Positions 27,168 to 45,592 of a stretch of DNA of 49,058 bases are shown one piece after another. The position numbers and the translations under genes were made by a program. This DNA is from Prolixibacteraceae bacterium (GTDB lineage Bacteria > Bacteroidota > Bacteroidia > Bacteroidales > Prolixibacteraceae): positions 1 through 49,058 of the forward strand of contig CANJNY010000022.1 in assembly GCA_947475715.1 (NCBI GenBank). Direction: 5' to 3'. Numbering within the stretch: the first letter of the stretch is position 1; each line of letters opens with the position of its first letter. The notes under the pieces are model-generated. The model did no database searches and had not been told where the DNA came from. It saw nothing but the letters and a program-made list of their open reading frames with translations.

Positions 27168-27896
27168 CTACCTATATCGGCTCAGCCCGGAAACTTTTGA
27201 AAATTCGAATCCCTGTTTCCGCAGTGATGGAATTATGGCTTTAATAATCTCCGCAGTTTTGGGTGCATATCGTCCACCTGACAGGTGAAAAACAATCACA
27301 GCATCTGCCTTTGCATTACTTAAAACATATTGAATAACAGATTTAGAGTCATAATTAAAGGCATCTCCGCTTGGGAAGGACCAGCCAACAACTTTAAGTC
27401 CGAGACTTTTAACCAGCTTAGTATCTGCCGAGGTATAACAGCCACCTGGAAACCGGAACAACACGGGTTTTTTTCCGGATAATTGCATTAAGATTTCCTG
27501 TGTTTTCAGGATATCATTCACTTTTTCATTATCAGGCAGGTTTGGAAGGGCATAGCAATCCGGCACAAATCCCCTATGACTATACGAGTGATTTCCAATT
27601 TCAAAAAGCGAATCAGAGGCAATTTGCCGTACAACTGAAGGATATTTCTCAGCCCAGATTCCTGTAATAAAAATGGTTGCAGGAACCTTTTGCTGATGAA
27701 GGAATGCAACAATGGAGGGATCGTACAACGACTTTTCAAGCCCGCTCTCTAAACGGCTCAACATTCCCCGGGTCATACATGCATCAAAGGTCAATGCAAT
27801 CTTTTTCGGTTTACCAATTAAGGGCAAAGATTGAGCAAAACTAAAAAATGAAATGCAACAAGAGAGCAATAGAACCAGTGCAAAGGTTTTTTTCAT
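27168..27896 (-). CDS. Exported polysaccharide deacetylase (NodB-fold) protein
   Basis: 242 residues from ATG 27896, which starts directly at the signal peptide (about 1-22). An in-frame start at 27950 would place 18 odd residues before it inside the neighbouring gene. NodB motifs: TFD-A at 36-39 with D38; H103 and H107 in GNHSYSH; RFPGG at 148-152; and H204 in VIVFHLSGG. The second Asp of the usual TFDD, normally a metal ligand, is replaced by Ala39. A metal-bound active site is therefore possible but altered. Members remove N- or O-acetyl groups from sugars. It is the last gene of the five-gene minus-strand unit that begins at 32816, 17 bases after the BASS transporter. Confidence 0.85.
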   Translation of the reverse strand: MKKTFALVLLLSCCISFFSFAQSLPLIGKPKKIALTFDACMTRGMLSRLESGLEKSLYDPSIVAFLHQQKVPATIFITGIWAEKYPSVVRQIASDSLFEIGNHSYSHRGFVPDCYALPNLPDNEKVNDILKTQEILMQLSGKKPVLFRFPGGCYTSADTKLVKSLGLKVVGWSFPSGDAFNYDSKSVIQYVLSNAKADAVIVFHLSGGRYAPKTAEIIKAIIPSLRKQGFEFSKVSGLSRYR

Positions 27897-27913
27897 GGTA
27901 AAGGTTAACATCC

Positions 27914-29194
27914 CTATTCCGGGTCTTTTGGAATTCTCCCGCGCCACCATGCTGCCAGGGCAGAACCGGTAACATTCATCAATGGACCGAATATTGCCGG
28001 CGCAAGACCAACTGTGGCAAGTTTTCCCATCTGCAGTGCTAATCCTGAAGCAAGACCACCATTTTGCATACCCACCTCAAAAGCTACTGTACGGCGATCT
28101 TTTTCAGGCATTCCGAAAATCCAGGATATTGAATAACCCATAGTATATCCGGTGATATTGTGCAGAAAGCTGGTAATGATAAGCAATACTCCGACTTTTA
28201 AGAGGCTTTCGCGCCCTGCAGCTGTAATGATGGTAATAATGACCACAATTCCCACCATTGAGGTTAAAGAGAGCACTTTTTCAAGCCACTTTTTATTCCC
28301 TTTCATCAGATGCCGCAATACCAGCGCCCCAATCAACGGTAACATATAGAACCATCCCAGCGATTTGAGCAGATTGATCACTAATCCGTTTAGATCTGCA
28401 TGCTTTGACTTCATAAAAACCAGGGTCGTGAGAAGTATAATTATAAAATAGGTGACCAGCTGAATGATCTTTGAACGTTTATCTACCTTGCCGGTTGCAG
28501 AGAAAAGATTAAATATAAAACCTGCAACGATGGGAAGGATAATCATATTCAGAATATCGAGCATCATATTCCAGAAGTTCACCTCGATATATTCCCCTCC
28601 CAGCATTCTCATCAAAAATGGAGTAACCAATGGTGACAAAAGGGTTGAAATGGCCCCGATTGTTACCGCCAGTGCCAGATTTGCCCTGGCAATATAAGAC
28701 ATTACATTAGAAGCCAGACCACTGGGAACACATCCGATAAGGATAATTCCTGCCGAGATTTCAGGTGGAAAACTGAAGATATGCGCGATCCCAAAACCAA
28801 CTAACGGCATAATCAGGTAGTGTGCACCTACCCCAATAACTACCCCCTTGGGCATTTTGATTACACCGGCAAAATCGTCAAAACTCATCTGAGATCCCAT
28901 TCCAAACATAATGACCTGCAGGAGTGGAATAATCAGGAATTTAAGTTGAAAATCCCCTACAGAAAGGAAAAACTGCGGATAGAACATTGCAGTTGAGGCT
29001 GCTGTAAAAATCCAGATGGTATACGAAAACCCTTTTACAGGTGCAAAGCCTCTCACACCCAAAGCCAGAGCGATAAATCCGGCAATCAATAAAGGACCGC
29101 CTAACGCAATGGCGTTTTCAGCAAGCAGATAAAGCGAACTCAAAAATAAGATTGCCCAGATGCCAATTAATACCTTGCTTAATCTTTTATTCAT
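27914..29194 (-). CDS. Bile acid:sodium symporter (BASS) family transporter
   Basis: 426 residues with about ten to eleven membrane helices covering almost the whole length. BASS signatures are the GCVPSGLASNVMSYIARANLAL crossover (shown in part), the preceding IIPLLQVIMFGMG helix and the later FEVGMQNGGLASGLAL helix. Relatives take up organic anions such as bile acids, pantoate or keto acids with sodium across the inner membrane. It lies 2 bases from the enolase-superfamily gene and 17 from the deacetylase gene. An acidic product of the exported pathway is therefore a reasonable substrate. This is inference from context. Confidence 0.92.
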   Translation of the reverse strand: MNKRLSKVLIGIWAILFLSSLYLLAENAIALGGPLLIAGFIALALGVRGFAPVKGFSYTIWIFTAASTAMFYPQFFLSVGDFQLKFLIIPLLQVIMFGMGSQMSFDDFAGVIKMPKGVVIGVGAHYLIMPLVGFGIAHIFSFPPEISAGIILIGCVPSGLASNVMSYIARANLALAVTIGAISTLLSPLVTPFLMRMLGGEYIEVNFWNMMLDILNMIILPIVAGFIFNLFSATGKVDKRSKIIQLVTYFIIILLTTLVFMKSKHADLNGLVINLLKSLGWFYMLPLIGALVLRHLMKGNKKWLEKVLSLTSMVGIVVIITIITAAGRESLLKVGVLLIITSFLHNITGYTMGYSISWIFGMPEKDRRTVAFEVGMQNGGLASGLALQMGKLATVGLAPAIFGPLMNVTGSALAAWWRGRIPKDPE

Positions 29195-29196
29195 AG

Positions 29197-30696
29197 CTAA
29201 CTAAATATTCGGTCATGCGAACGTTTATCATCCCATTCGGTGGTTGGTGCAAAATAACTTTTATCTCTGGGGTGAAGATGTCCTTTGACCACCTCTTCAT
29301 TTAATTCAATACCAAATCCCGGCGCGGAAAGTGGTACGTTGGCAAACCCTTTGGTGATTAATGGCCGTCCATCCGTTGTTGTAACCAGACTTTCCCACCA
29401 GGGAAGATCAACCGAATGGTGCTCCAGCGCCAGAAAGTTTTGGGTAGCTGCAGCACAATGGACGGATGCCATAAACGAAACGGGTGTGCCGGCCTGATGC
29501 ATCGCCATGGCTATTCCATGTTCTTCGGCATAATCACCGATACGTTTTGTCTCCAAAAGGCCACCGGAGGTAGCCAGGTCAGGATGAATAATATCAACAG
29601 CATGATTATCAATCAGCGGCTTAAAGTTTTTAAGTAAATAGATATCCTCCCCTGTCAGAAGCGGAGTCTCGAGCGCATCGGACATCGTTTTCCACTGGTC
29701 TGTCAACTCCCATGAAACTAGATCTTCCATCCATGCCAGCCGGAACTTCTCAAGTGCCCGGCCGAGTCGTATTCCATTATTCAGATCGAAATGGCCATAA
29801 TGGTCTGTAGATAATGGAATTTCATAACCCACCAAATCTCGTGTTTCACCTGCAATTCTGGCCAGCTCTTCAATCCCTTTATCGGTAATCTGCACCTGCG
29901 TAAAAGGGTGCTGTGTATTTCCATACGACATATAATTGGATTGATCGCCCCATTGTGAGAGGTTTTTGTCATTGTCTTCCCAGAATTTTGAATTTACCAA
30001 AGTTCCCGGTTTCCCTTTTAACTCACCAATAGAAAGGTCCATCTTTAGCCAGGTATATCCTTGCTCTTCAGTCCGGAATTTGATCAGTTTAAGTTGTTCT
30101 TCGGGCGATTTTGCCTCCGGAGTATCGGCATAAAGTCTGATTTTATCCCGGTACCTTCCACCTAATAATTGCCAGGCAGGCACATTGTATGCCTTCCCTA
30201 CTAAATCCCAAAGTGCCATTTCAACTCCGCAAACCCCTCCCGCCTGACGGGAAGGACCGCCAAACTGCTTGATTTTTTTGAATATCATCTCCACATTACA
30301 GGGATTCATACCCAGAATACGGCTTTTAAGGATGAGCGCATAACGGACATCGGCACTGTCGCGCACCTCACCCAGTCCATAAATTCCCTGGTTGGTATCA
30401 ATCCGAATGATGGCACTACCACCCATCACCGATGTTAACGCATAACGTAAATCGGTAATTTTAAGATCTGAGGGACTTGAAGACCTGCTAACATTGGCCG
30501 TGGTTTGGGCAATCGAATCTTCAATTGTCAGCGACATTAAACCACCCAAAGATATTCCTCCGAGGAGGGACTTTCGGAGAAAATTTCTACGGTTACTGGT
30601 CGTCAAAGGGTTATTGATTTCAACGTGAACAGCCGAAATATCGTCCCTTTCCCTGGCCTTGTTTTGTTCAATTATCCTTTTTAAAATATTACCCAT
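29197..30696 (-). CDS. Tat-exported enolase-superfamily (mandelate racemase type) sugar-acid dehydratase
   Basis: 499 residues. A long N-region precedes the twin-arginine motif SNRRNFLRK (R36, R37) and a hydrophobic stretch to about 65, so export by Tat is predicted. The N-terminal cap domain (about 78-185) is followed by a TIM barrel. Metal ligands fit D298, E324 (WMED) and E350 (TGED). The catalytic base H400 in MHQAGTP and the following E425 in LALEHH match the D-mannonate/galactonate dehydratase subgroup. It would dehydrate an aldonic or uronic acid to a 2-keto-3-deoxy acid. It sits directly between the RraA-fold gene (12 bases) and the BASS gene (2 bases) in one transcription unit. Confidence 0.88.
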   Translation of the reverse strand: MGNILKRIIEQNKARERDDISAVHVEINNPLTTSNRRNFLRKSLLGGISLGGLMSLTIEDSIAQTTANVSRSSSPSDLKITDLRYALTSVMGGSAIIRIDTNQGIYGLGEVRDSADVRYALILKSRILGMNPCNVEMIFKKIKQFGGPSRQAGGVCGVEMALWDLVGKAYNVPAWQLLGGRYRDKIRLYADTPEAKSPEEQLKLIKFRTEEQGYTWLKMDLSIGELKGKPGTLVNSKFWEDNDKNLSQWGDQSNYMSYGNTQHPFTQVQITDKGIEELARIAGETRDLVGYEIPLSTDHYGHFDLNNGIRLGRALEKFRLAWMEDLVSWELTDQWKTMSDALETPLLTGEDIYLLKNFKPLIDNHAVDIIHPDLATSGGLLETKRIGDYAEEHGIAMAMHQAGTPVSFMASVHCAAATQNFLALEHHSVDLPWWESLVTTTDGRPLITKGFANVPLSAPGFGIELNEEVVKGHLHPRDKSYFAPTTEWDDKRSHDRIFS

Positions 30697-30708
30697 TAAT
30701 TTGAAATT

Positions 30709-31638
30709 TTAATAGTTACGTTCTTTAAGATAGTTGTCCAATTCCTGTTTTGTCATTGGCAGCTTACCGGCGTAATGATTAATCCAGTCGAGGAAATCCT
30801 TTCTGATCGGTTCGCTCCACTCGCTGTCAATTTCACCCGGTTTATATTTCCCTTCACGCAGTCGCTGATGGCCAAACTGATTCCGCAATCCGGTTAACTC
30901 AGAGGTCATTACCACCTCTTCGGCAAGATGGGCCGGAATAAAGATCGTTCCGTATTTTTTTGCCAGAACCACGTCACCGGGTAATACCGTCACATGGCCA
31001 ATACGTATCGGGGAATTGATGGAGGTGAGCATCATCTGGTCGATGTAGGAGGGATCGACACTTTTGACCCAACCATTGAACCCTTTTATTTCGCTTATTC
31101 CCTCCTGATCGCGCACACTGCCGTAAAAAATAACTCCTCTTTTAGATTTCGCATAGATTGAATTTCCCAGGTTATCCCCAATCAGCGTTCCCCCTTCAAC
31201 CTTTCCATAACTATCTGCAACATAGATATCACCCTCAACCAGTACGTCAATCGGCCACGAATTGGTCGCCCCTTTGGGAGAACGGTTCTCGGAGAGACCC
31301 TGTTCTCTGATTTGTTTCTGGAAGTCGGGGCGCAATGGCATATACTGAGCAGTCACTACACGACCGGTCATGGTACTGTCAGGATTAAAAATTACCCAGT
31401 TACCTTCGTATTGGTTTTGATATCCTTTATTCCGAAGGACACCCCATGCATCTTCGATTCCGATATTCTTCAATCTTGAAAGGATATTGTCCGAAACCTT
31501 TGGTCGTCCGTCAGGGAAACGCTCTCCCTTCCATTCTGAAGTTATCGCCTTAATATATTCCGGCGTGGAACCAACTCTTTGAGCATTGGAAATAAAAGAG
31601 CACAATGCAAATGCGAGAAATAATACCGTTTTTTTCAT
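30709..31638 (-). CDS. Exported RraA-fold protein (HMG/CHA aldolase-like)
   Basis: 309 residues with a Sec signal peptide ending near NAQ (about 1-20). The RraA/class II pyruvate aldolase-like domain (about 85-260) has GGTLIGDNLGNSIYAKS and the YGSVRD motif with R176 and D177. In 4-hydroxy-4-methyl-2-oxoglutarate aldolases these positions bind and activate the substrate. The extra N- and C-terminal parts exceed the usual 160-230 residues. A signal peptide is unusual for this fold. Its gene precedes the dehydratase gene, so it could split or rearrange the keto acid made there. It is also possible that it only binds a ligand. Confidence 0.85.
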   Translation of the reverse strand: MKKTVLFLAFALCSFISNAQRVGSTPEYIKAITSEWKGERFPDGRPKVSDNILSRLKNIGIEDAWGVLRNKGYQNQYEGNWVIFNPDSTMTGRVVTAQYMPLRPDFQKQIREQGLSENRSPKGATNSWPIDVLVEGDIYVADSYGKVEGGTLIGDNLGNSIYAKSKRGVIFYGSVRDQEGISEIKGFNGWVKSVDPSYIDQMMLTSINSPIRIGHVTVLPGDVVLAKKYGTIFIPAHLAEEVVMTSELTGLRNQFGHQRLREGKYKPGEIDSEWSEPIRKDFLDWINHYAGKLPMTKQELDNYLKERNY

Positions 31639-31685
31639 CTGTTATATTATTCGTTTTTTATTGTAAGTCAACTCCAGACCTATTT

Positions 31686-32816: not shown

Positions 32817-32976
32817 TTGGGGTTAGTTTAAAAAGGTTATCACGTGTTGGTTTTGATATGAGAATGTAGTAAAAATATAAAAACTATATGAATAATAATT
32901 ATATTTATACGGATTTATGAATCTTTTTAATTTGATTATTGAATGTAAAAACTATACTCCACATAAACCGTCTACC

Positions 32977-34584
32977 ATGAAACGCAGAGATCTAATAAAA
33001 AACTTAGCGGTACTTCCTATGGCAGGAAGTTTTCTTCCGATTGATTCATTTTTAACGGCATCTGCTGGTCCGCTTACCCCCGGACCAACGATCTATCAAT
33101 CGATTGGGGTGGAGCCGGTGATCAATTGCGTTGGAACTTACACCATTATTGGCGGTTCATTGGAGCGTCCCGAAGTGGTAGCTGCCATGCATGCGGCCTC
33201 CGGTTTTTTTGTTCAGTATGATGAGCTGGCCTTTGGTGTTGGAAAACGGTTGGCAGAAATAACAGGAGCTGAGTGGGGAATGGTTTCATCAGGGTGCGCG
33301 GCCGGGATGAAACATGCAACTGCAGCCTGCATTACCGGGGGAAATCCTGAGAAACTTATTCGGATTCCTGACCTCCGAGGGTTTGACAAAACAGAGGTTG
33401 TCATTCCCCGAAGCTCGCGCAATGTATATGATCATGCCATACGAAATATCGGAGCAACAATTATTACTGTTGACACCCTTGACGAGCTTCGCAATGCCTT
33501 GAATTCGCGCACTGCCATGATATATCTGAATGCAGGTTCGGAAACTCTGCCCGGAGAAAAATTTGCGCTTGAGACCATTGCAGGGATAGCCCGACCCAAA
33601 GGGATTCCAATACTTATAGACGCTGCTGCCGAAGATCTTACGATTCCGAATATCCATCTGAAGCAGGGTGCCGACATTGTTGCATACAGCGGCGGGAAAG
33701 CGCTATGCGGTCCCCAATGCGCCGGACTTTTACTGGGAAGGAAAGACCTGCTTATGTCAGCCTGGCAGGCAAGTTCGCCCCACCATGGTCCCGGAAGGGA
33801 TAATAAAGTAGGGAAAGAGGAGATGATGGGAATGCTGGCTGCTGTCGAATCGTGGGCAACCCGCGACCACGCAGAGAAGCACAAAACCTGGCATACCTGG
33901 CTTGAAACAATCTCAAGGGAGGTATTGTCGGTTGGCGGGTTAAAAACACTAATCAACGAGCCACACGGTCTCTCCAATAACAGTCCCTCCTTAACGATCT
34001 CCTGGGATCCGGCGAATTTTAACCTTACCGGGCCCCAGGTTGGTGAAGAGCTTGCCTCAAAACAGCCACGGATTGCATTACACAGCAGTCATAATGATGA
34101 AACAGGAATCAGTTCAGTAACTATTTCGACAGGTCAGATGCAGCCGGGCAATGAAAAAGTCGTCGCGGATCGTCTTATTGCCTTCTTTTCGCAGAAACAT
34201 GAAAAATTAGCGGGAATGAATCCTCCATCTGTGAACATTTCAGGCCATTGGGATGTTGACCTAGAATTCTATAGCAGTACAAGCCGCCATACCTTTTTCC
34301 TTGAACAGGATGGAAACTGGATAAAGGGGTCGCATAACGGAGATTTTTCATTGCGCGAGATGGTCGGGTCTATAGAAAATAACCAGGTAAAACTAAGTAG
34401 TTCCGACGGGCATATTGCCGACAACATCCTTTTTGTATTTTCAGGAACTGTTGCAGCAGATTCAATGTCGGGTGATATCTATATGGGAGAATATATCAGG
34501 GCCAAATTTAATGCTTCGCGTCACCAGCAAAAAGGTATCCGCAGGGCAATCAAATTTCCCAAAAGTCAACCGTTATCAAGTTAA
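32977..34584 (+). CDS. Tat-exported SelA-fold PLP enzyme with C-terminal beta domain
   Basis: 535 residues from ATG 32977, chosen because it begins with the twin-arginine sequence KRRDLIK; the frame could also open at 32917. The PLP domain (about 40-410) has the Schiff-base lysine K241 in AYSGGKALCGPQ and D215 in LIDAAAED, as in SelA-related enzymes (EF_0838/DgaE type). The known member DgaE is an ammonia-lyase on D-glucosaminate-6-phosphate. Residues about 417-525 form an added beta-rich domain (NISGHWDVDLEF, GNWIKGSHNGDFS), perhaps lipocalin-like, which the second copy lacks. Predicted to act outside the cytoplasm on an amino-sugar acid; the substrate is inference. Confidence 0.83.
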   Translation: MKRRDLIKNLAVLPMAGSFLPIDSFLTASAGPLTPGPTIYQSIGVEPVINCVGTYTIIGGSLERPEVVAAMHAASGFFVQYDELAFGVGKRLAEITGAEWGMVSSGCAAGMKHATAACITGGNPEKLIRIPDLRGFDKTEVVIPRSSRNVYDHAIRNIGATIITVDTLDELRNALNSRTAMIYLNAGSETLPGEKFALETIAGIARPKGIPILIDAAAEDLTIPNIHLKQGADIVAYSGGKALCGPQCAGLLLGRKDLLMSAWQASSPHHGPGRDNKVGKEEMMGMLAAVESWATRDHAEKHKTWHTWLETISREVLSVGGLKTLINEPHGLSNNSPSLTISWDPANFNLTGPQVGEELASKQPRIALHSSHNDETGISSVTISTGQMQPGNEKVVADRLIAFFSQKHEKLAGMNPPSVNISGHWDVDLEFYSSTSRHTFFLEQDGNWIKGSHNGDFSLREMVGSIENNQVKLSSSDGHIADNILFVFSGTVAADSMSGDIYMGEYIRAKFNASRHQQKGIRRAIKFPKSQPLSS

Positions 34585-34691
34585 CTGATTGGGATGTCTA
34601 TTATAAAAACCAGTAAAATAACTATATTTTCAATAACGAATAGCATAATGAGATAGATAACTATTTTCCCTAATTTTTAGAAACCATTCAG

Positions 34692-36293
34692 ATGCAAAGA
34701 CGTGATTTCATAAAAGTTTCCTCTGCGGCAGGGTTGATTTCGATGGCAGGACCCGGATACAGCGCAATGGCTAAGCTTGCTTCATCCGGAGAATCCGGAT
34801 TTGACCTCCATCCGTTTATTAAGGCCCATCCTGAGGCCGTATTTATAAATCTCACTTCAATTGAAGCTAAGAGTGACTCCGAAGGTATCTATAATGCTGC
34901 ATCAACACTCGCAAGGGAGATGTTCGTTAAAACATCCAATGGAGCGGGATATTCGAATGGCACAAAAATTACGTGTAAGCCCAACTGGACCTGTAGCGGG
35001 CCTGTTGACAATTCGGATCCGCTTGCAAATGTCGGAATAACTACAGATCTGAATTTTATCGAAGGGTTTTTAAGGGGAGTCAAGGAGAAGGGGCCTCAGA
35101 AATTCTATTTAAGGGAATGTGCATGTCCGCAGCTTTGGAGTAACAGAGGTTATACCCAGATGGCCGAACGAAATAATTTTGATTTGCGGGATCTGAGTAC
35201 AAAAGACTTCTGGGAATTAGATAAAGAGGATGTGATTTTTCAGAAAGTTGATGGGGTTGTCTTCAAAGAGGTTGGGTTCATGGCTCCAATGACCGGCCCG
35301 GACACGTTCCTGATTAACATCGCCAAATTCAAGGCCCACCTGATGGGAATTACAGCATCTATTAAAAACCTGCAGGGAATAACTGCTAAAAAATTTCATC
35401 AATATTGCGGTGGGAATTACAGCATCTTCAAAAGCTATGACAAGCAATATCATCAGTTTTTTCAGCCCGATTACCTGGAAAGAGTTCAGGAACTTCATAA
35501 GAAGCATCAGAGCGAAGGGATACCACGCTGGGATACCCGAATGGAAAAACCCCCTTACGGCGGAGGGTTATTTATGGAACAATGGGTCCAGCGAATGATC
35601 GATTCATACAGTGTAACACCCACCGGGATAAATATTGTTGAAGGAATTTACGGACACGACGGGGATGGTTTTTCGGGGGGGCCTCACGATGGTAAAGCCG
35701 GAGATTTTATGTCAAACAATGTCATCTTTGGCAAGGATGCTTTCCGGGTTGATATTATCACCCATTGGCTGGCAGGCCATGAACCCGGCAATTTCGGATT
35801 ATTCCATATCGGCATTGAGCGCGGTGTTTCAAATGTTCTCAATCCGAAGGATATTCCGGTATACCTCTGGAAACACGGCAAGGCAAAGCTCATAAAACTG
35901 GACACCTTAAAAAGGACTCCTCTACTGACTAATTATCTGCGCAAAAATACCAATGGGCAAAAAGAGGAGAAATACCATCTCTGCAACGAACCGTTTGACT
36001 ATTCAGCATGGAGAGCCGGAACCCCTCTGCCAAAAGCAGATGCGAACATCCGGGCACTGGGTACAGATTCAGATCAAAAGGTGGTTATGGAAGTTTCAGT
36101 CCCGGAAAAGGGGGATGTTTTTGTGGATATCCTCAACCGCCATGGCGAAGTAGTATGGCGCCTCGAAGCCAACGACCTCGAACCCGGAAAACACCAGGTG
36201 GTATGGGATGGATTTTCATCACCAGGCCTTTACAACATGTATGTAAAAGGGATGGGATGGGATGCCGGGCGTCAGATGGTGATCTATACCTGA
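34692..36293 (+). CDS. Tat-exported DUF362 family protein
   Basis: 533 residues. The twin-arginine signal QRRDFIK is at 2-8. The DUF362 domain (about 45-400) is recognisable from TCKPNWTCSG, then FLINIAKFKAHLMGITASIKN (shown in part) and the following LQGI. The C-terminal 70 residues (about 465-533) look like a FlgD/Ig-like domain ending GMGWDAGRQMVIY. Cysteines occur in CKPNWTC and ECACPQ, but no classical 4Fe-4S motif is present. The biochemical function of DUF362 is unclear; several relatives are tied to iron-sulfur or redox work. It follows the first SelA-fold gene by 107 bases on the same strand, so it may work with it. Confidence 0.82.
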   Translation: MQRRDFIKVSSAAGLISMAGPGYSAMAKLASSGESGFDLHPFIKAHPEAVFINLTSIEAKSDSEGIYNAASTLAREMFVKTSNGAGYSNGTKITCKPNWTCSGPVDNSDPLANVGITTDLNFIEGFLRGVKEKGPQKFYLRECACPQLWSNRGYTQMAERNNFDLRDLSTKDFWELDKEDVIFQKVDGVVFKEVGFMAPMTGPDTFLINIAKFKAHLMGITASIKNLQGITAKKFHQYCGGNYSIFKSYDKQYHQFFQPDYLERVQELHKKHQSEGIPRWDTRMEKPPYGGGLFMEQWVQRMIDSYSVTPTGINIVEGIYGHDGDGFSGGPHDGKAGDFMSNNVIFGKDAFRVDIITHWLAGHEPGNFGLFHIGIERGVSNVLNPKDIPVYLWKHGKAKLIKLDTLKRTPLLTNYLRKNTNGQKEEKYHLCNEPFDYSAWRAGTPLPKADANIRALGTDSDQKVVMEVSVPEKGDVFVDILNRHGEVVWRLEANDLEPGKHQVVWDGFSSPGLYNMYVKGMGWDAGRQMVIYT

Positions 36294-37097: not shown

Positions 37098-37116
37098 ACC
37101 CGTCGCTGGACCAGGT

Positions 37117-38370
37117 TTATTTTCCACTCAGAATTACAGGGCTTGCAATACCATTCAGATCATAAACGATTTTCCCGGCCCTAATGGTCATTTCACATTC
37201 AAGCTTATTAGTGGTCTCCAATTTATAGCCGGTGTAATCGAATAATCCGAATTTACCTTCGCGAAGCCTTAGAATTGCGATATCTGCTTCAGCTCCTACA
37301 GAAAGGTTCCCAAGCTCCTTCCGGTTAATTGTCTGTGCCGGCCCCCATGTACTTGCAGTGATAACACTTTTAAGGTCCATACCCATCGCCATAAATTTCG
37401 ACATCGTGGTAAGCATATCCTTCATCGCCCCATTCATACTGCCAATATGCAAATCAGTACTGATTGCCTGAGGATAAAAACCGCTTTTAACCGCAGGCAT
37501 CCCTTGTGAATAGGCAAAACTTATGCCGCCATATCCCACATCGAAAACAATTCCCCGCTTCAGCGCTTCCCAAACAAATGGTTTAACTTTATTGGTCTGA
37601 ACATCCACGATACATTCCCTGGCATTTGGCAACTGTGCAAAACAATGTGTAAAGATGTCTCCGGGACGCAAATGTTTCAGGAATAAATCCTCGATTGGCA
37701 GTGGAGGAGTGCTCCCCCCAAAATCGACCATGAGTGGCATACCTGCTATCAAACCTGCCTCCTCTGCTCTATCTGTCGGAGTCCAGTCGGGACCATCATA
37801 ATGTGCCAGCTTAATCCCCACAATATCGGCGGCGTTATTTTTTGCGAATTCACCGGTTAATTTGGGATCCATATCTTTAACATTCTGCTCAAAGGGACCT
37901 CCACGCATTCCTTCGCCAACGATATTCAAAAATGCCAGAACCCGCGTTTGAGATTTGTCGATGGTTTGCCTTTTGAAAACGGGGAAAGTACGCCAACCGG
38001 AGCTGCCGGCATCGACAATTGTGGTCACTCCAACCCGGAAAGTAAAACCATCGGGTGTAATCGCGCTCGGACCGTTCATATATTGCTGATCCGGATTACT
38101 CCCCTGGAAAACATGCGCATGAATATCAATAAGTCCGGGAGTGACATACAAACCACCGGCATCGACCACCTGTTCTCCCGCCCGGCTATCTATCTCTTTT
38201 GCCACCAGGACAATTCTCCCTTCACTTATGCCAATATCGGATATTTCATCAATGTTATTCCTGGGATCTATCAGATGACCACCTTTAATTACGATGGAGT
38301 AAGTTTGGGCATTTGCAGAACCTGAAATCAGGCAGAGCAATGCAAAAATGAGAACTGGTTTGATTTTCAT
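37117..38370 (-). CDS. Exported amidohydrolase/deacetylase (EF_0837/AHA_3915-like)
   Basis: 417 residues with a Sec signal peptide ending near NAQ (about 1-22). Amidohydrolase metal site: H84 and H86 in DIHAH; candidate bridging lysine K187 in VGIKLAHYDG; H242 in IFTHCF; D306 in ISTDLHIG. The closest group is the EF_0837/AHA_3915 metallohydrolases. That group is known to be genetically linked with SelA-related PLP enzymes, exactly the partners found on either side here. Likely a deacylase or lactamase-like hydrolase that frees the amino acid or amino-sugar substrate of the PLP step. The gene is alone in its immediate unit, with the RidA gene further downstream. Confidence 0.88.
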   Translation of the reverse strand: MKIKPVLIFALLCLISGSANAQTYSIVIKGGHLIDPRNNIDEISDIGISEGRIVLVAKEIDSRAGEQVVDAGGLYVTPGLIDIHAHVFQGSNPDQQYMNGPSAITPDGFTFRVGVTTIVDAGSSGWRTFPVFKRQTIDKSQTRVLAFLNIVGEGMRGGPFEQNVKDMDPKLTGEFAKNNAADIVGIKLAHYDGPDWTPTDRAEEAGLIAGMPLMVDFGGSTPPLPIEDLFLKHLRPGDIFTHCFAQLPNARECIVDVQTNKVKPFVWEALKRGIVFDVGYGGISFAYSQGMPAVKSGFYPQAISTDLHIGSMNGAMKDMLTTMSKFMAMGMDLKSVITASTWGPAQTINRKELGNLSVGAEADIAILRLREGKFGLFDYTGYKLETTNKLECEMTIRAGKIVYDLNGIASPVILSGK

Positions 38371-38544
38371 AAATCAACGATTAAAATTTAAACTATAAAA
38401 ATCTTCTGTATCAAGCAGCAAAACCCTGCCTAAAGAGCGGTGTAATTGCAAGATATTGTAGCTATTATTATGCAGTTTATCGTCATTTGTTTCTTTCAGA
38501 ACAGTTCGGTGTATTGTATTATCACACCTGCAATCTGAGGTAAA

Positions 38545-39717
38545 TTATCCAAATAATGATGGTGAAATAACATTATTGATGGTGAATTTGGGTGGTTTTC
38601 CTGCGGTTGCCTTTACATTTGGATGCTTCTTTAAAAAACTTGTTAATTTTCTGCTATCCCAATCTAATTTCAACGCAAGTAAAATTTCCGTTGAGGTGTA
38701 GCTATCTCTTTTTAATAAACTGATAATGTCATTTTCAATGTTTCGATTGCCATCTTCACCTGGAGCTTGTGGTTCATTTACTTCATGGTTATTGACAGTT
38801 TCAAAAAGTTCGTCTGAAGATAATACTTTAAACTCTGTGATTTCACCATTTATATTCACAGGTAAAGCTCCGAATTCAATTAATTTAAGGTTTGCATTTT
38901 TTTCTTTTGGTTCCGGCACTCTCACATAAATCTTTCGGTGTCGCTTCAATCCATTCATAGCACCCTCCCATGTGCCCCCTTTATTATCAGATTCAGCGAC
39001 AAATATTTCCTTTGCCAATCCATAGATGTAGGCATTTCGAGCCATCGCAAATCCGACATCCCAACCGGCTTTTGGAAAAAATGTGCTTAATACCAAAACA
39101 TTCCCATTCACAATTGGTTCGTAATATTTTTTAAAGCCTGACTGAAAAGTAAGTATCCCTTGAGGCAAAACAAGGATGCTTTTTCCATTGGATTCCAAAG
39201 TGCTGTCCAATGCTTGTTTATCGACTCCCTTAGCAAAACCGCTGACGATAACCTTTAATTCTTTTACATTTTTTTTTGCTACCTGGTCTGTAAACTCTAA
39301 AGCTTTGTTGCCCGCTTTTCTCGAACCTACAATTGCCACGGCATCCTCCTGAAGTAATCCTTTTCTTCCCTTAATATACAAAACTGTTGGAGCACTTTTG
39401 ATTTTAAGATTTTCCTTTAAAACTACCGGATAATCAGGTGAATTGATTGGAATAATCTGAAAACCTTCATTTTGCAGTTGCTCTGCAATGAATGCCAGAC
39501 GTGGCATATCGTCTTTTGCAGCTTCCAAATCGGCCAGCTCCTTTTCGTTAAAGGCAAACAATTCACACCACTCTTTTTTATCCAGGTCAAAGAAATTGGC
39601 CCATGACATTTTGTTTTCGTGAACCACCTGAATTACGAGGCGGTTTATCCGTTCAGTATGCCATTTGGGTAAATGTGCAATTGCGATCCAATATGTTTGA
39701 TCAATATATTCGTTCAT
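38545..39717 (-). CDS. DprA-like SLOG-domain protein
   Basis: 390 residues, cytoplasmic. An N-terminal helical region (about 1-100) precedes a DprA/Smf Rossmann-like domain (about 108-300) with VAIVGSRKAG (G131-S-R), VSGFAKGVDKQAL at 158-170 and GKSILVLPQGIL. A short C-terminal helical part (about 335-385) may be a winged helix. Canonical DprA loads RecA on single-stranded DNA in transformation, but SLOG relatives also serve in conflict systems. This protein is diverged and paired with a RecQ-phosphoribosyltransferase gene 12 bases upstream. It is unlikely to be the housekeeping copy; a defence or DNA-processing role is inferred. Confidence 0.85.
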   Translation of the reverse strand: MNEYIDQTYWIAIAHLPKWHTERINRLVIQVVHENKMSWANFFDLDKKEWCELFAFNEKELADLEAAKDDMPRLAFIAEQLQNEGFQIIPINSPDYPVVLKENLKIKSAPTVLYIKGRKGLLQEDAVAIVGSRKAGNKALEFTDQVAKKNVKELKVIVSGFAKGVDKQALDSTLESNGKSILVLPQGILTFQSGFKKYYEPIVNGNVLVLSTFFPKAGWDVGFAMARNAYIYGLAKEIFVAESDNKGGTWEGAMNGLKRHRKIYVRVPEPKEKNANLKLIEFGALPVNINGEITEFKVLSSDELFETVNNHEVNEPQAPGEDGNRNIENDIISLLKRDSYTSTEILLALKLDWDSRKLTSFLKKHPNVKATAGKPPKFTINNVISPSLFG

Positions 39718-39729
39718 TTCTGTTTGTTT

Positions 39730-41745
39730 TTAAATATCACCACCAACTGTCCGTGCAATTACCAGAGGTGCAATACAGGCAGCTCCCATAACTGTAAGGT
39801 ATTGACCAATCTCCTTGATCGTATTACCGCTATCAAAGATATCGTCAATTAAAAGTACGCTTTTACCAGCTATTTCATCAGGTGTTTGATAGGTAAATTT
39901 ACCGTGTATGTTCTCTTTCTTTGAAATTCCGCTTAGAAACATTTTTTGAGGTGAAGTTGGTGAAATCTTAATCAACTTATGAGAAATCGGAATTTTTAGT
40001 GCCGAAGATATTTTCTCCGCAAAATGCTTTACCAAATCACCCGATTCGGTTGGCGGAACATAGATAATCAGATCCATTTTAGGATCTCCGTAGTATTTAC
40101 GGAATGCCTTCAAAGTTAAACCTAAAAGCCAGTCCGGGAAATCTCCGCCACCTTCGTATTTGGAATGTCGTAAGGCCGCACCAACATTTGTAACCCCATA
40201 ATAAGAGGAAGCCACACCATTTATAAGATGACTTCGGTGGGTTTCGACTTCCAGCACAGGAAAGAAGGTCTCCTTAAACTCCTGAAGTTTTTGAATCATA
40301 ACATCACTGCTTACGACATTCAGAAGCTGATTTGTATCATTATCGCAAATGCCGCAGGAGGTTTGTTTTTCATCACCCAGGTAATTGCATAAATATTTCA
40401 TTCGGCAGGAGGTAATCCGGGTATATTCCACCATCCGTTCCAACTCCTGATTTTGTGCATTTCTCAATATTTCAAATGCAGTAAGGTCCAACGGTGGTGC
40501 CTCTGGATTGAAGAAATATTTTTTGCATTTCCCATCGACCTGTTCGTTGATTATCTTCTGATCGATTAAGTCAGCCAAAATTACACGTACATGTGTTTGT
40601 TTAAGATTGGTTGCCTTTATGATCTCATTTGTTCCTAAAAAAGCTTTTTTGGTTACTGCAATTACCTTTTCGTATTTCGAAGCCGAGGGTTTGCTACCAT
40701 CAATGAAACTTCTCGGCAATTCCAGATCGTCGTTTGAATTGTATAATAATATTGCAAAAGCTTCCTGCCCATCTCTACCCGAACGACCTATTTCCTGATA
40801 GTAATGAATTGGAGATTGCGGTATTTGGGTATGAATGATAAAGTGAATATCCGGTTTGTCGATACCCATTCCTAAAGCATTGGTAGAAACAACACAATCA
40901 TATTTGTTAGTTATAAAATCCGATTCGATCCTTATCCGTGCCTCACCATCTAATCTCCCGCTGTATGCAGCCGATTTGAATTTCAGAAATTGAAGCCAGT
41001 TGGAAAAAAGATCTGTATTCGCCTGAGTTCCGGTGTAGACTATACCTGTCTTTTTAAGCTTTGGTAAATTCGCAGCAAGCCAAAAGAATTTTTCATCCTC
41101 ACAAGTAACATGAACTACAAAAAGCCTGATGTTTGAACGCAATAATTGCCCCCTGACAGGAATCAAACCGGAACCAACCTGTTCTATGATGTCGGCTTCG
41201 ATGCGTGGAGTTGCCGTTGCTGTAGTTGCAAGCACCGGAAAATTCTTTGGCAATAATCTGACAAGATTTACTATCCTTCGATAATTAGGACGAAAACTTT
41301 GCCCCCACAAAGAAATGCAATGGGCTTCGTCAATTACCACCATTGCAATTTTCATTTCCCTGGAAGCAGTTATCCAGGTTGCATTCTCCATCCGTTCAGG
41401 TGCGATGTAAAGAATGTCCAGCTCGTTGTTTTGTGCTTTTGCAATCATTGCAGCATTTTCGTCCTCTTCCTGGTTGGAATTAATAGCCGCAGCACGAATG
41501 CCTCTCTCCACCATACTTCGAACCTGGTCGCGCATTAAGGCAATTAAAGGTGAGAAGACGATCGTAACACCCTGCAATTGTGTAGCAGGAAACTGATAGC
41601 ATAATGATTTGCCAAAACCTGTTTTTTCAATAAACAACACACGCCTACCAGCCAGCAAGTTTTCAATAACCAGCCATTGCAAATCGTAAAACTGATTGAA
41701 TCCAAACAGTTTGCGTAGTTGTATCTCAGCTTGTTGTCGTGTCAT
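39730..41745 (-). CDS. RecQ-family helicase fused to a phosphoribosyltransferase domain
   Basis: 671 residues, cytoplasmic. SF2 helicase motifs: Walker A GFGKS with K46, DEAH at 139-142, VLATTATATP, and motif VI YYQEIGRSGRDG. A zinc-binding RecQ region with four Cys (SCRMKYLC, then CGIC) follows near 450-480, then a winged-helix-like part. No HRDC domain is seen. Instead the C-terminus is a phosphoribosyltransferase domain (about 520-671) with the PRPP-binding motif IDDIFDSGNTI at 633-643, resembling ComF. The DprA-like gene follows within 12 bases, so both form one unit. The pair resembles predicted nucleotide- and DNA-processing conflict modules rather than a housekeeping RecQ. Confidence 0.9.
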   Translation of the reverse strand: MTRQQAEIQLRKLFGFNQFYDLQWLVIENLLAGRRVLFIEKTGFGKSLCYQFPATQLQGVTIVFSPLIALMRDQVRSMVERGIRAAAINSNQEEDENAAMIAKAQNNELDILYIAPERMENATWITASREMKIAMVVIDEAHCISLWGQSFRPNYRRIVNLVRLLPKNFPVLATTATATPRIEADIIEQVGSGLIPVRGQLLRSNIRLFVVHVTCEDEKFFWLAANLPKLKKTGIVYTGTQANTDLFSNWLQFLKFKSAAYSGRLDGEARIRIESDFITNKYDCVVSTNALGMGIDKPDIHFIIHTQIPQSPIHYYQEIGRSGRDGQEAFAILLYNSNDDLELPRSFIDGSKPSASKYEKVIAVTKKAFLGTNEIIKATNLKQTHVRVILADLIDQKIINEQVDGKCKKYFFNPEAPPLDLTAFEILRNAQNQELERMVEYTRITSCRMKYLCNYLGDEKQTSCGICDNDTNQLLNVVSSDVMIQKLQEFKETFFPVLEVETHRSHLINGVASSYYGVTNVGAALRHSKYEGGGDFPDWLLGLTLKAFRKYYGDPKMDLIIYVPPTESGDLVKHFAEKISSALKIPISHKLIKISPTSPQKMFLSGISKKENIHGKFTYQTPDEIAGKSVLLIDDIFDSGNTIKEIGQYLTVMGAACIAPLVIARTVGGDI

Positions 41746-41901
41746 CTATCTATTTCTTCTTTTAGGCATACTCAATCGTTAATACCTATCAACCGGGGTC
41801 TTGCCAAAGTCCCCTTTTTGTATTCCTTAAATAAGTTTCATCTGCCACATATTCTGACCCGCAGAGGTCCTATTAATCAGTTATTATACCAAACTAAATG
41901 G

Positions 41902-43122
41902 TTACACCGAAGCTTTCCCCAATTCCTCCTTAAGCCTTTTGGCAACAATCTTCTCCTCTCCCGGCTGCAAGTTCCATGAGGTAATATTGATGCTGTTCTC
42001 ATTTCCTCCCGCTACTTCAATTGAAGGGTCACCTTTACGAAGTTTTTCCTGCAATCCCCCATTATTAAATTTCACTTTGGTGGTATCCCACGAAATATTG
42101 AGTGTGGGGGTACGATTTGCAACAGCAGGAACAGAGATTATGGTAGTTACTCCGGCAATCTTGTTGGCTGCGGCGGCTATTAATGCAACACGATCTTCCC
42201 AGATCTTCCACTGTTTTATGTGATCCAGGTTAATAAACTTTTCGAGGGCGACATACATTCCCAAAATCTCCTCCTTGTTTACTTTCATTCCGCGGCCAAT
42301 ATTACCTCCTCGTGGGGGGGCATTCAGTCTGGCAGCGGCAATCAGGTCTTTCCTTCCCATAAGGATTCCGGTACTTTGAGGTCCGCGAATACCCTTACCA
42401 CCTGAAACACATACAAGGTCAAATCCCATGTCGTTAAATTTCCACATATTTTCCACCGGAGTAGCATCAGCTGCCATATCGATCATTGTGGGGATGTTGT
42501 GTTTCTTTCCAAGTGCAACCCAATCTTTATCAGTTATCTTGCCATTTGGACCGGCATAATTAAGAAACCACATCATGGCGATATTCTCATTTACAGCCTT
42601 TTCTACATCTTCCGGAGTTTCAACCTCAACCATTTTAACCCCTGTATTTGTTAGGGCGTGGACATATCCGCTGTTGTGCGATTTTTGCACTAACACTTCA
42701 GATTTCATCCCTTCGAGATGAGGAAGCTGAGCCACCTTTTTGGGATCCATGCCAGTCAAAACACCAGCCGTTCCCAACACAAGGGCAGACCAACACCCAG
42801 CAGTTACAGTAGCGGCCTCGGAGTGACACAACGCTGCAATTTTTTCGCCAACCTTGTCCTGCACCTCATCAATCATGGCGAATTCATGGGATGTTGACCG
42901 GATTGCATCCAGCACCTCTTCATGCATGAGACTACCCGACATAGCGGTATAGGTTCCTGCAGCATTTATAAACGTTCGTATTCCAAGCTCTTTAAAAAGA
43001 TTCCGTCTTGCGGGTGATGGAGCAGGAGCGCCCATTACAGAATCAAATGGGAATGTTGTGCCTATGGCCAGACCTGCCACCGGCCACACAGATAAATTTC
43101 GGAGAGCGTCTCTGCGTTTCAT
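41902..43122 (-). CDS. Tat-exported SelA-fold PLP enzyme, second copy
   Basis: 406 residues. The N-terminus has the twin-arginine sequence KRRDALRNL (R3, R4) and a hydrophobic stretch to about 30. The SelA-related PLP domain runs from about 43 to 400. The Schiff-base lysine is K243 in VCVSGGKGIRGPQ, with D215 in MIDMAADA. Compared with the copy at 32977-34584 it lacks the added C-terminal beta domain and differs widely in sequence. The two are therefore probably not redundant and may act on different stereoisomers or steps. The known DgaE-type members are amino-acid or amino-sugar-acid ammonia-lyases. It is separated from the RecQ gene by 156 bases and from the glycosidase gene by 237. Confidence 0.87.
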   Translation of the reverse strand: MKRRDALRNLSVWPVAGLAIGTTFPFDSVMGAPAPSPARRNLFKELGIRTFINAAGTYTAMSGSLMHEEVLDAIRSTSHEFAMIDEVQDKVGEKIAALCHSEAATVTAGCWSALVLGTAGVLTGMDPKKVAQLPHLEGMKSEVLVQKSHNSGYVHALTNTGVKMVEVETPEDVEKAVNENIAMMWFLNYAGPNGKITDKDWVALGKKHNIPTMIDMAADATPVENMWKFNDMGFDLVCVSGGKGIRGPQSTGILMGRKDLIAAARLNAPPRGGNIGRGMKVNKEEILGMYVALEKFINLDHIKQWKIWEDRVALIAAAANKIAGVTTIISVPAVANRTPTLNISWDTTKVKFNNGGLQEKLRKGDPSIEVAGGNENSINITSWNLQPGEEKIVAKRLKEELGKASV

Positions 43123-43359
43123 ATTAGTCAGCTTTTAAAGTAAATATCTCGATTGTGCTACCTATTTTTACTCGCATATTCGATTCCCGACCTGGGAAAT
43201 CTGCCACAAAACTTTCAGTGAAACATTCACATAAAGCGTTTTTTCATCCGTACCTACTTCAATTCCATTTGCCGCATGATTAAGCGCTGTTAATATACAT
43301 AAAAAAATGAAATATATTACTTTGCTCTAACAGAGATTAATTACCAAAATAATTACCAC

Positions 43360-44499
43360 TTAAGGAAGGCTTCCCGGCAAAGCCTTACTGGTCAGCAATC
43401 CGATACACCGACCCTTGTTTCCGACCGCACAATAGTAGAGATAAAAAATATTATTCGATGGGTTGTAAACCAGCGAAATCTTATGGGCATATTGCTTATC
43501 CAATCCCCCGGGATGACCTCCTGCCTTATAAAGCGGATCCGGATGAGAAGTCCAATGTTGTAAATCGCGTGAGAATGCCACCATGATATGAGCACCGTCA
43601 CGACCTACGCCAAAATAGAACATCACCCAGTGATCCCCGTCCCGAAAAACCTTCCCATCGGAACAAAATTTATCATCATAACCTCCCTTTCTCACACGGA
43701 CAATTGGATTCTCCTTATAGCGTTCCCAATTCATCAAATCGGTGGAGGTTGTGAGGCCTAACTGCTCAATCCACTCAGGCATCCGCTTCGCATTATAAAA
43801 GTTATAAAACTTCCCCTTATATTCCACAAGCCAGGGCTGATAGATACAATCTTTCTCCCACTCGCCTACTTCAGGTTCATGGACCGAAAGAATATATTTC
43901 TCCTTTGCCCGCAGCCACGACAACCCATCCACACTGGATGCGACCCCCTCATAACCTGGATCAATTTCATAACTCCCCTGCCTGGCATAGCTGCCATAGA
44001 GGGTCCAGAATTTTCCATCCCGCTTTTTCAAAACTCGCGGAGCTTTAATATCATAAGAATTATAGAGATAGGCTCCAATCACACGCCCGCCGAAATCAAA
44101 TTCGCCCTCCCGACCAAAGCCCATCGCGAGCCTGGGATTTGTCCAATTCAGCAGATCGGTACTCTCAACGACAAAACTGTTATATCCCTGCCCGTTAAAT
44201 CCAATAAGCGACATAAACCATTTTTCAGGTTGACCGGGAATCTGATAGACCGTTGGGACATCAAAGCTATGAAAAGCCTCATTGCCGGGAATTTTTAAAT
44301 CTTCCGGAATAATCGGATCAGGATAATAATGCCATCCCCTGAAGGGTGCCGACCAGGCCTCGAGGGTCGCCTGATCGATCGTTGAAGCGTTCTTTGTTTC
44401 TTTATCTGTGCGATCCTTACTGGCAGCTGCTACCACAAACGCACAAAAATAAACAGCACCAAAAAGGATACAAGCAGCTAATTTAATTTTCATATTCAT
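43360..44499 (-). CDS. Exported five-bladed-propeller glycosidase-like protein (GH43/GH32 style)
   Basis: 379 residues with a signal peptide (about 1-26). Five beta-propeller blades are suggested by repeats such as VVESTDLLNWTNPR, ASSVDGLSWLR, TTSTDLMNWERY and AFSRDLQHWTSHP. Acidic residues at the start of the strands (FDVPTVYQ, D-x-P) resemble the GH43/GH32/GH117 families. It should cleave or bind a glycoside outside the cytoplasm. The substrate and exact family cannot be read by eye. Its gene starts 7 bases after the alpha/beta hydrolase stop, so the two are co-transcribed. An alternative start two codons in (MKIK) would remove only two residues. Confidence 0.75.
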   Translation of the reverse strand: MNMKIKLAACILFGAVYFCAFVVAAASKDRTDKETKNASTIDQATLEAWSAPFRGWHYYPDPIIPEDLKIPGNEAFHSFDVPTVYQIPGQPEKWFMSLIGFNGQGYNSFVVESTDLLNWTNPRLAMGFGREGEFDFGGRVIGAYLYNSYDIKAPRVLKKRDGKFWTLYGSYARQGSYEIDPGYEGVASSVDGLSWLRAKEKYILSVHEPEVGEWEKDCIYQPWLVEYKGKFYNFYNAKRMPEWIEQLGLTTSTDLMNWERYKENPIVRVRKGGYDDKFCSDGKVFRDGDHWVMFYFGVGRDGAHIMVAFSRDLQHWTSHPDPLYKAGGHPGGLDKQYAHKISLVYNPSNNIFYLYYCAVGNKGRCIGLLTSKALPGSLP

Positions 44500-44506
44500 T
44501 TAAATT

Positions 44507-45592
44507 TCAATTTTTTAGGTGTTTTTCGAAACACTTTTTTGTTTTATCCCACATGAGATCCGATAAAACATGACCGGTATCAGGTTCGATGAACGATGTG
44601 AAATTACCCGAAACTCCGGCATTCCGGTAGGCTTCGGCAATTATTTGCAAGCCGCTTCTGACCGCTTCAACAGGGCTTCCGAAGTCTTTCTCTCCAAAAT
44701 TCAGGTGAAGGGCCCGGGGGGCAATAAGAGCTACAATATCGGGGGTGTCGCCAAAATTTCTCCATCCGGGCACATAATTAGGCATACAATGAAGGTAATG
44801 GGCTGCCTCGATGGCTTCATAGGTTGGCATACAGCAGTTACCAACGATGCATTTAAGCCGTGGCTCGAGCGGACCTACCAGCCACGAATGCGTCGATCCC
44901 ATTGAATGACCGTAGCACCCCAGCCGATCGGGCTTCACTTCAGGGCGCGAACAGAGCACATCAACAGCCCGTTTCATCTCCAGAATATTTCGCCAGGCCA
45001 TGCATCGTCCTCTTACGACCTCCTTCAGAAATTCAAACCGTTCGTAAACACTATCTTTGAGTTTTCCCAAGGGGTCTTGTCGCTCTTCAAAACAAAGGGC
45101 GTCGGGACAGAGAACCACATACCCTTCGCGAACAAGGGCCAGACCGGTATGGTGCATTGGATTTCCGGCAAGACCCGCAGGTTCGTTCTTCCCGAGATGG
45201 TACTCGCCATTATGCTGATGCCACACTGCAATTGCCGCAGCGGGATTCTTTGCCGTAACCTGATCAGGTACCATTAATAATGCAGGAATCTTAATTCCGG
45301 GCTGTGCCTGATAAGTCAACGACTCGATACGATAACCATCCTTTTGGATTATTTCACGAATCTGAACATTCATGGGTACCTGATCCGGAAACGGACCGCC
45401 GAGGCATTGCTGATATTTTTCGCGCATATTATTCGCAGACCAAACAGGCTCACTTGAAGGTTTGGCGGACCCTGCATGTGCCTCCGAAATTGCAATTCCT
45501 GGCATGGTTGCTCCAAGGGCAAAAATAACCTGTGACTTTAAAAAATTGCGGCGATTGTTTTTGAGGACCGGGATTGAGGGTTTAGTTTTCAT
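44507..45592 (-). CDS. Tat-exported alpha/beta hydrolase (esterase type)
   Basis: 361 residues. Twin-arginine signal NNRRNFLKS (R14, R15). Alpha/beta hydrolase fold (about 75-360): nucleophile S230 in YGHSMG, likely acid D303 in FGEKDFGSP, and H341 in DTGHV. The proteins it resembles are dienelactone/acetyl-esterase-like hydrolases, often found with polysaccharide lyase or glycosidase genes. It may remove acetyl or other esters from the sugar before or after cleavage. It starts the small unit that continues into the propeller glycosidase gene (7-base gap). The regulator gene at 45724 lies 131 bases upstream on the same strand. Confidence 0.85.
   Translation of the reverse strand: MKTKPSIPVLKNNRRNFLKSQVIFALGATMPGIAISEAHAGSAKPSSEPVWSANNMREKYQQCLGGPFPDQVPMNVQIREIIQKDGYRIESLTYQAQPGIKIPALLMVPDQVTAKNPAAAIAVWHQHNGEYHLGKNEPAGLAGNPMHHTGLALVREGYVVLCPDALCFEERQDPLGKLKDSVYERFEFLKEVVRGRCMAWRNILEMKRAVDVLCSRPEVKPDRLGCYGHSMGSTHSWLVGPLEPRLKCIVGNCCMPTYEAIEAAHYLHCMPNYVPGWRNFGDTPDIVALIAPRALHLNFGEKDFGSPVEAVRSGLQIIAEAYRNAGVSGNFTSFIEPDTGHVLSDLMWDKTKKCFEKHLKN

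Follow-up and report, generated by a model that had tools for sequence, protein, structure and literature searches.

Sugar catabolism beyond glycan cleavage and oxidation is usually assigned to the cytoplasm. Among the described systems closest to the one considered here is the ong oxidative chitin pathway of Pseudoalteromonas prydzensis, in which, according to the available text, a deacylase, a pyridoxal 5'-phosphate (PLP)-dependent deaminase and a RidA protein convert N-acetylglucosaminate into 2-keto-3-deoxygluconate (KDG), followed by KDG kinase; the RidA protein, OngD, is essential, and that text gives its role as unknown (PMC9537276). A second point of comparison is DgaE (PDB 7lc0), which, like the enzyme proposed here, is a SelA-fold PLP ammonia lyase that turns an amino-sugar acid into a 2-keto-3-deoxy acid. 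The chitin clusters of Natrarchaeobius provide a third, with a predicted glucosamine route through a phosphorylated intermediate that the authors themselves call hypothetical in the accessible part of their report (PMC12343721). Here we describe a locus of a Prolixibacteraceae bacterium (assembly GCA_947475715.1) on contig CANJNY010000022.1, a stretch of 49,058 nucleotides, referred to as the window, which is one of the 315 contigs of a 5.77 Mb genome. Its genes may encode an exported sugar-acid catabolic module, with the upper half of the pathway in the periplasm and two branches meeting at a 2-keto-3-deoxy acid that a BASS-family carrier would import; our confidence in this reading, which is drawn from sequence, is evenly balanced between acceptance and doubt.

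In the amino branch, the amidohydrolase would remove the acyl group from a 2-acylamino-2-deoxy-aldonate of the N-acetylglucosaminate kind, after which a SelA-fold PLP enzyme, exported through the twin-arginine translocation (Tat) system, would eliminate water. Without the His pair that serves DgaE as proton donor, this enzyme would release an enamine, which a co-exported RidA would hydrolyze to the 2-keto-3-deoxy acid and ammonia. In the plain branch, a Tat-exported dehydratase of the enolase superfamily would convert an unaminated aldonate into the same kind of keto acid, and RraA and BASS would be common to both branches. The meeting point is placed at the 2-keto-3-deoxy acid because the chemistry of either branch yields such a compound. 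BASS would import it, and KDG kinase and 2-keto-3-deoxy-6-phosphogluconate (KDPG) aldolase would complete the pathway in the cytoplasm; RraA may act as a 4-hydroxy-2-keto-acid aldolase on part of the same intermediate, which is the weakest step. We infer the substrates, the order of the steps, the cargo of BASS, the reaction of RraA and the real localization of the enzymes.

The gene families listed in an earlier note on this DNA were all found between positions 27168 and 45592 through the list of open reading frames (ORFs) and profile searches, and the six RR strings to which it drew attention are real. Each fits the pattern RR.[FGAVML][LITMVF] and precedes a hydrophobic stretch, and they form the N-termini of the dehydratase, SelA1, the DUF362 protein, RidA, SelA2 and the alpha/beta hydrolase. 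The note had also claimed export signals for all of the listed proteins; signal-like N-termini do occur throughout, although those of the amidohydrolase, RraA, the GH43-like protein, the polysaccharide deacetylase and the propeller protein resemble signals of the general secretory (Sec) pathway rather than Tat signals. Two genes within the span, at 38545-41745, lack a signal; a bare RR motif at residue 34 of the RecQ-like protein encoded there comes without a signal call.

Tat and Sec calls were made with home-made N-terminal rules, one strict and one looser. Under the strict rule, Tat signals were called in 23 of 30 SelA homologues, 13 of 19 RidA proteins, 7/7 dehydratases and 7/7 DUF362 proteins, compared with 6 of 253 other ORFs, two of these six being SelA fragments and one the alpha/beta hydrolase of the window. 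The looser rule raised the calls to 29/30 for SelA and 17/19 for RidA, left dehydratases (7/7) and DUF362 proteins (7/7) as they were, and called 16/253 other ORFs, together with 1/26 amidohydrolases, 2/12 lactonase-type and 1/7 GSDH-type proteins; what it missed was one SelA cut at a contig end and two RidA proteins with RK instead of RR. Chance as the origin of the RR signals was ruled out by this conservation in SelA, RidA, dehydratase and DUF362 against the rarity in other ORFs. The remaining proteins follow another pattern, with 25 Sec-like and one lipoprotein-like N-terminus among 26 amidohydrolases, Sec-like N-termini in all 11 RraA proteins, and Sec- or lipoprotein-like ones in 11/12 lactonase-type and 7/7 GSDH-type proteins. 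As judged from these N-termini, there is a division of labor in which SelA, RidA, the dehydratase and DUF362 use predicted RR signals, and the amidohydrolase, RraA, lactonase-type and GSDH-type proteins use Sec- or lipoprotein-like ones. PLP enzymes receive their cofactor in the cytoplasm and hence need Tat for export, a requirement that would extend to the SelA proteins of this locus.

An alternative is that the RR motifs and hydrophobic N-termini are not functional signals and that the enzymes are retained in the cytoplasm or at the inner membrane. The NCBIfam Tat models speak partly for it, as they match the six RR N-termini below their curated cut-offs only, and for SelA2 the best-matching stretch is residues 35-57, away from the N-terminal RR. 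These models were nonetheless the only matches for all six RR N-termini and matched 0/4 control N-termini. Moreover, the signals are kept across protein families that share these loci but are otherwise unrelated, and they precede the catalytic domains, whose matches begin at residue 41 in SelA2, 50 in RidA and 78 in the dehydratase. The genome also encodes TatC, at another place. We regard this alternative as very improbable; the core enzymes are probably exported to the periplasm.

The linkage of the genes was assessed in other genomes. Relatives of SelA2 were found, always counting the genome under study, in 10 of 140 genomes from the family (E <= 1e-10), in 2 of 295 from the order, and in 8 of 395 from the phylum at E <= 1e-20, which is a patchy spread in Bacteroidota. 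The nearest named loci, 80-82% identical, belong to metagenome-assembled genomes labeled Mariniphaga sp. (2), a genus of Prolixibacteraceae, and uncultured Bacteroidia (2). We read 21 SelA segments from 18 genomes, the present one included. SelA, amidohydrolase and RidA occur together in 17 of them, the other four lying on short contigs or where a contig ends; RraA is present in 9, BASS in 9, the dehydratase in 5, a lactonase-type (SMP-30) protein in 12, a GSDH-type protein in 6 (with a cytochrome c domain in the one checked), another RidA-like protein in 5, and DUF362 in 7, all of the same genus as the window. Several module loci adjoin SusC/SusD genes. Across the 395 phylum genomes, the amidohydrolase occurs in 12, including all 8 with SelA2 (hypergeometric 3.6e-14, or 1.2e-12 without the genome under study), and the exported RraA in 23, again including all 8 (3.6e-11 and 6.2e-10, respectively), with neither set of values corrected for kinship; in G342, G388 and G425, RraA lies away from SelA. 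The earlier note had suggested looking for the same gene set elsewhere, and the core is indeed kept together in distant relatives, so this is not a case of neighborhoods that never join these genes.

The two SelA-type genes of the genome both lie in the window. Their products match DgaE with E-values of 2.5e-31 (SelA1, from residue 57) and 2.1e-27 (SelA2, from residue 41), and the translation of SelA1 likely starts at residue 21. When 30 exported SelA proteins were aligned to DgaE, the PLP lysine was present in 30/30. The His162-His163 pair was present in 0/30, each of the two positions having a lone His once, and the phosphate-site residues Arg301, Arg332 and Arg346 were Arg in 1, 1 and 0 of the 30, position 346 being a gap in all of them. 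According to the available text on DgaE, in which the PLP lysine is printed as Lys-217 (K213 in chain numbering), His163 protonates the enamine, the H163A variant keeps full activity and releases the enamine, and a manually docked model puts the Arg cluster near the phosphate (PMC9529869). The loss of the His pair and of most phosphate-site Arg residues leads us to predict an unphosphorylated substrate and a released enamine, and a released enamine would explain the co-exported RidA. Two other assignments for the SelA-fold proteins, as selenocysteine synthases and as enzymes acting on a 6-phosphate, were rejected on the family-model search and the residue alignment with DgaE. As a separate observation, the PLP domain of SelA1 and its homologues is followed by an additional C-terminal part of about 130 residues (window 34200-34584, + strand), without a Pfam match.

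The amidohydrolase belongs to the PRK09237 amidohydrolase/deacetylase family (NF006689, above the curated cut-off) and matches PDB 8je0 over its whole length (2.8e-46). A D-aminoacylase type like OngB was not indicated, as 1m7j and 3gip match the first domain only, with E ~1e-4. Residues H84, H86, K187, H242 and D306 are invariant in 26/26 sequences. At the strand-5 metal-site position where the printed 2ogj alignment has His, the 26 exported amidohydrolases have Asp (25) or Glu (1) (window 37740-37780, - strand). RidA has R130 and E147 invariant in 19/19 homologues and scores 63.2 with the narrower model TIGR00004, below its cut-off of 106.25. Likewise, D298, E324, E350 and H400 are invariant in 7/7 dehydratases, and G154, D155, R176 and D177 in 11/11 RraA proteins. 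The invariant residues of the amidohydrolase, RidA, RraA (R176 and D177) and the dehydratase are those that we presume to be catalytic. No equivalog model was reached by the dehydratase, the best being NF010624 (gluconate/galactonate dehydratases; 167.8, below 311).

The dehydratase, RraA and BASS also form a module of their own. RraA was found at 35 places, 5 of them within SelA segments; for the remaining 30, we fetched 20 stretches, which take in 23 of them. In these 20 stretches, SelA, amidohydrolase and RidA were all absent. RraA accompanies a Tat dehydratase in 14 (8 of which also have BASS), accompanies BASS in 1 and stands alone in 4; at L144, the ORF caller saw only the dehydratase. 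BASS is present in 9/20. The dehydratases of these stretches carry RR within the first 60 residues in 19/19 cases, and 21/22 RraA proteins are Sec-like, one with an overlong start reading as Tat-like. As far as the compared loci tell, there are two separable exported modules; each branch occurs without the other, RraA and BASS occur with either, and both branches are present in the window.

This separability bears on another explanation, in which the amidohydrolase would be an N-acyl D-amino acid deacylase, SelA and RidA would deaminate beta-hydroxy D-amino acids derived from debris of the wall or of peptides, and the dehydratase, RraA and BASS would be a separate sugar-acid module that happens to be adjacent. 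The two gene sets do occur apart, and by general family knowledge the chemistry of SelA and RidA suits any 2-amino-3-hydroxy acid. The sugar-acid context of the SelA genes argues in the opposite direction, with RraA or BASS in 10/21 SelA segments and the lactonase-type and GSDH-type proteins in 12 and 6, and the nearest characterized SelA relative works on a glucosaminate phosphate. We consider this explanation unlikely.

At L135, the second module is part of a longer row of genes on one strand. It begins with a sigma-like protein (27% match), an anti-sigma factor assigned by position, SusC and SusD; continues with two RR-bearing mannonate-dehydratase-like proteins, RraA, a dehydratase, BASS and another dehydratase; and ends with a pyrroloquinoline quinone (PQQ) dehydrogenase bearing cytochrome c, then a lactonase-like protein (27% match), a KDG kinase-like protein whose best model stays below cut-off, and finally a KDPG aldolase (NF005499, 355.3, above the cut-off of 275). 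At L143, RraA, two dehydratases and BASS stand beside an AGE-type epimerase-like protein, a PQQ dehydrogenase-like protein and an SMP-30 protein, the first two scoring below equivalog cut-offs. UxuA (mannonate-dehydratase-like) proteins with RR adjoin the dehydratase/RraA module at L135 10598-12864 (-), L141 5080-6159 (-) and L132 4481-5665 (-). In the genome under study, contig C115 carries a KDG kinase-like gene (70% identical to its L135 counterpart) and, adjacent to it, a KDPG aldolase-like gene (56% identical to that of L135); the two are next to genes that we take to be uronate genes. Given these C115 genes, import of a KDG-type acid appears workable, short of proof.

Cleavage might also be completed outside the cytoplasm, with the exported RraA cleaving the 2-keto-3-deoxy acid in the periplasm to give pyruvate and an aldehyde, so that BASS would import pyruvate and not the whole keto acid. 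Consistent with this, BASS lies within four genes of RraA (<=4) in 16/18 BASS-bearing segments, a count biased by the choice of loci by SelA or RraA; RraA retains the residues of its fold family; and LigK-type aldolase models match it, below cut-off (NF006731, 50.2, below 179). Conversely, G388b has BASS without a nearby RraA, and the KDG kinase-like protein and KDPG aldolase in the L135 row point to import of the whole keto acid. BASS itself scores 230.6 with the PanS model, below the cut-off of 400. Complete cleavage in the periplasm is, in our judgment, a minority possibility, and import of the intact keto acid is the version that we prefer.

Several observations weigh against the two-branch periplasmic pathway. 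Lys occupies DgaE position 332 in 6/30 exported SelA proteins; at the position of the DgaE carboxylate residue Arg226, 14 of the 30 have Arg, 13 have Lys and 3 have Asn; and the alignment of the His loop is gapped, so that single positions there are uncertain. The Arg226 variation and the gapped loop weaken the argument from SelA to enamine release and RidA dependence. The amidohydrolase occurs without the rest of the set in four genomes of one distant genus (L093-L096), with a long N-terminal extension, 15/23 RraA genomes lack SelA2, and RraA stands alone at 4/20 of the stretches mentioned. To these can be added that the proposal leaves RraA beside a KDG kinase route unexplained, and that the case for a uronate branch in this window is weak. 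The genome also has no close lactonase or GSDH relative (best 31% and 30%) and 0 LPMO_10 matches; oxidized chitin made by a lytic polysaccharide monooxygenase (LPMO) was rejected as the source in this organism on the latter result. The conservation of the export signals, the linkage, the kept and lost active-site residues and the two separable modules are nevertheless properties of the compared sequences. A broader proposal is that Bacteroidota have a patchily distributed periplasmic pathway with interchangeable branches, in which a Tat-exported PLP ammonia lyase without its own proton donor would rely on co-exported RidA, the enamine would be formed and removed outside the cytoplasm, and the keto acid alone would be imported; this is tentative, and we judge it somewhat likelier to fail than to hold.

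Table 1. Features of the window discussed in the text, with model scores in bits where so given.
Feature	Coordinates	Strand	Evidence and remarks
BASS-family carrier	27914..29194	-	PF01758 129.5 bits vs cut-off 24.3; proposed keto acid importer
Enolase-superfamily sugar-acid dehydratase, Tat-type	29197..30696	-	PF13378 and PF02746 above cut-off
RraA-fold protein, Sec-type	30709..31638	-	PF03737 56.8 vs cut-off 24.5; possible 4-hydroxy-2-keto-acid aldolase
SelA1, Tat-type DgaE-like PLP enzyme with extra C-terminal domain	32917..34584	+	TIGR01437 147.9, below cut-off 385.3
DUF362 protein, Tat-type	34692..36293	+	PF04015 61.2 vs cut-off 24; same-genus partner of SelA1
RidA, Tat-type	36477..36941	-	PF01042 66.8 vs cut-off 27.3; proposed enamine/imine hydrolase
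Amidohydrolase, Sec-type	37117..38370	-	NF006689 438.5 vs cut-off 371; proposed N-deacylase
PsyrA-like and PsyrT-like pair	38545..41745	-	PADLOC PsyrA 274.1 bits, PsyrT 804.3 bits; outside the pathway
SelA2, Tat-type DgaE-like PLP enzyme	41902..43122	-	TIGR01437 153.5, below cut-off 385.3; proposed ammonia lyase on an unphosphorylated amino-aldonate
GH43-like protein (Sec-like) and alpha/beta hydrolase (Tat-like)	43360..45592	-	PF04616 and PF12715 above cut-off; local neighbors

The pathway of the earlier note started with a glycosidase and an esterase, and this part did not survive the comparison of neighborhoods, in which the GH43-like protein, the alpha/beta hydrolase, the polysaccharide deacetylase and the propeller protein lie outside the conserved neighborhoods; as local genes only, they were rejected as core parts. 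In the other SelA segments, GH43 had no match and the alpha/beta hydrolase one match of 28%; the propeller is present in three same-genus genomes. What stands of that pathway are the conserved signals, the linkage, the coherent chemistry of deacylase, PLP ammonia lyase, RidA and dehydratase, and the adjacent BASS. Between the amidohydrolase and SelA2 sit a DprA-like gene (PsyrA) and a RecQ-like gene with a phosphoribosyltransferase domain (PsyrT). This pair resembles the PsyrTA defense system rather than a part of the pathway, and no obvious flanking repeats surround it. In all five other same-genus segments that hold both genes complete (G078, G081, G085, G086 and G094), the amidohydrolase directly adjoins SelA2.

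Elsewhere in the window, positions 3999-22189 of the + strand, opposite to most of the genes above, hold a seemingly unrelated run of thioredoxin-like genes, an M16 peptidase, a Kelch-type protein and a SusC/SusD pair. A DsbD-like gene at 6911-7677 (+) is broken into two short overlapping ORFs, possibly through a frameshift or an assembly error. Promoter and terminator scans gave nothing above chance level. Two AlphaFold models were of low quality, with mean pLDDT values of 34.8 and 58.9, and no inference rests on them.

If the proposal is true, the periplasm of some Bacteroidota would house the upper half of an Entner-Doudoroff-like route that includes a PLP enzyme and RidA, and the cell would take up a keto acid that had not first been phosphorylated. 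The exported RidA would gain a testable rationale, and the locus would offer a case for why cells keep enamine chemistry out of the cytoplasm. Exported SelA, RidA, RraA and dehydratase proteins also bear family names that misleadingly suggest the cytoplasm. Export of a PLP enzyme by Tat after folding has a precedent in PvdN of Pseudomonas, which serves siderophore maturation, unlike the carbon catabolism considered here.

Compared with the known systems, the DgaE system differs in that its substrate enters through a phosphotransferase system and is phosphorylated, and DgaE itself has the His162-His163 pair and phosphate Arg cluster mostly absent from the exported SelA proteins. The ong pathway shares the logic of deacylase, PLP deaminase and RidA with the amino branch, yet its OngB and OngC are predicted to be cytoplasmic, unlike the signal-bearing enzymes of this locus, and are of the D-aminoacylase and D-amino-acid-deaminase types instead of the EF0837/PRK09237 and SelA types; an SSS carrier takes up the intact sugar acid, and the available text describes no exported dehydratase or RraA (PMC9537276). 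That pathway also uses C1-oxidized chitin supplied by LPMO, in contrast to the present genome with its lack of LPMO_10 matches. A similar gene set of cytoplasmic type has been put forward for the Natrarchaeobius clusters, where a DgaE-like lyase and a galactonate dehydratase are joined by a glucose dehydrogenase and a RutC-family protein within a single cluster, but these belong to haloarchaea, and the accessible part of the report does not mention enzyme export (PMC12343721). Literature searches, mostly without subscription papers, did not find an exported gene set of this kind. The families are known and their predicted chemistry is like that of the ong and dga pathways; the exported set would be the novel part.

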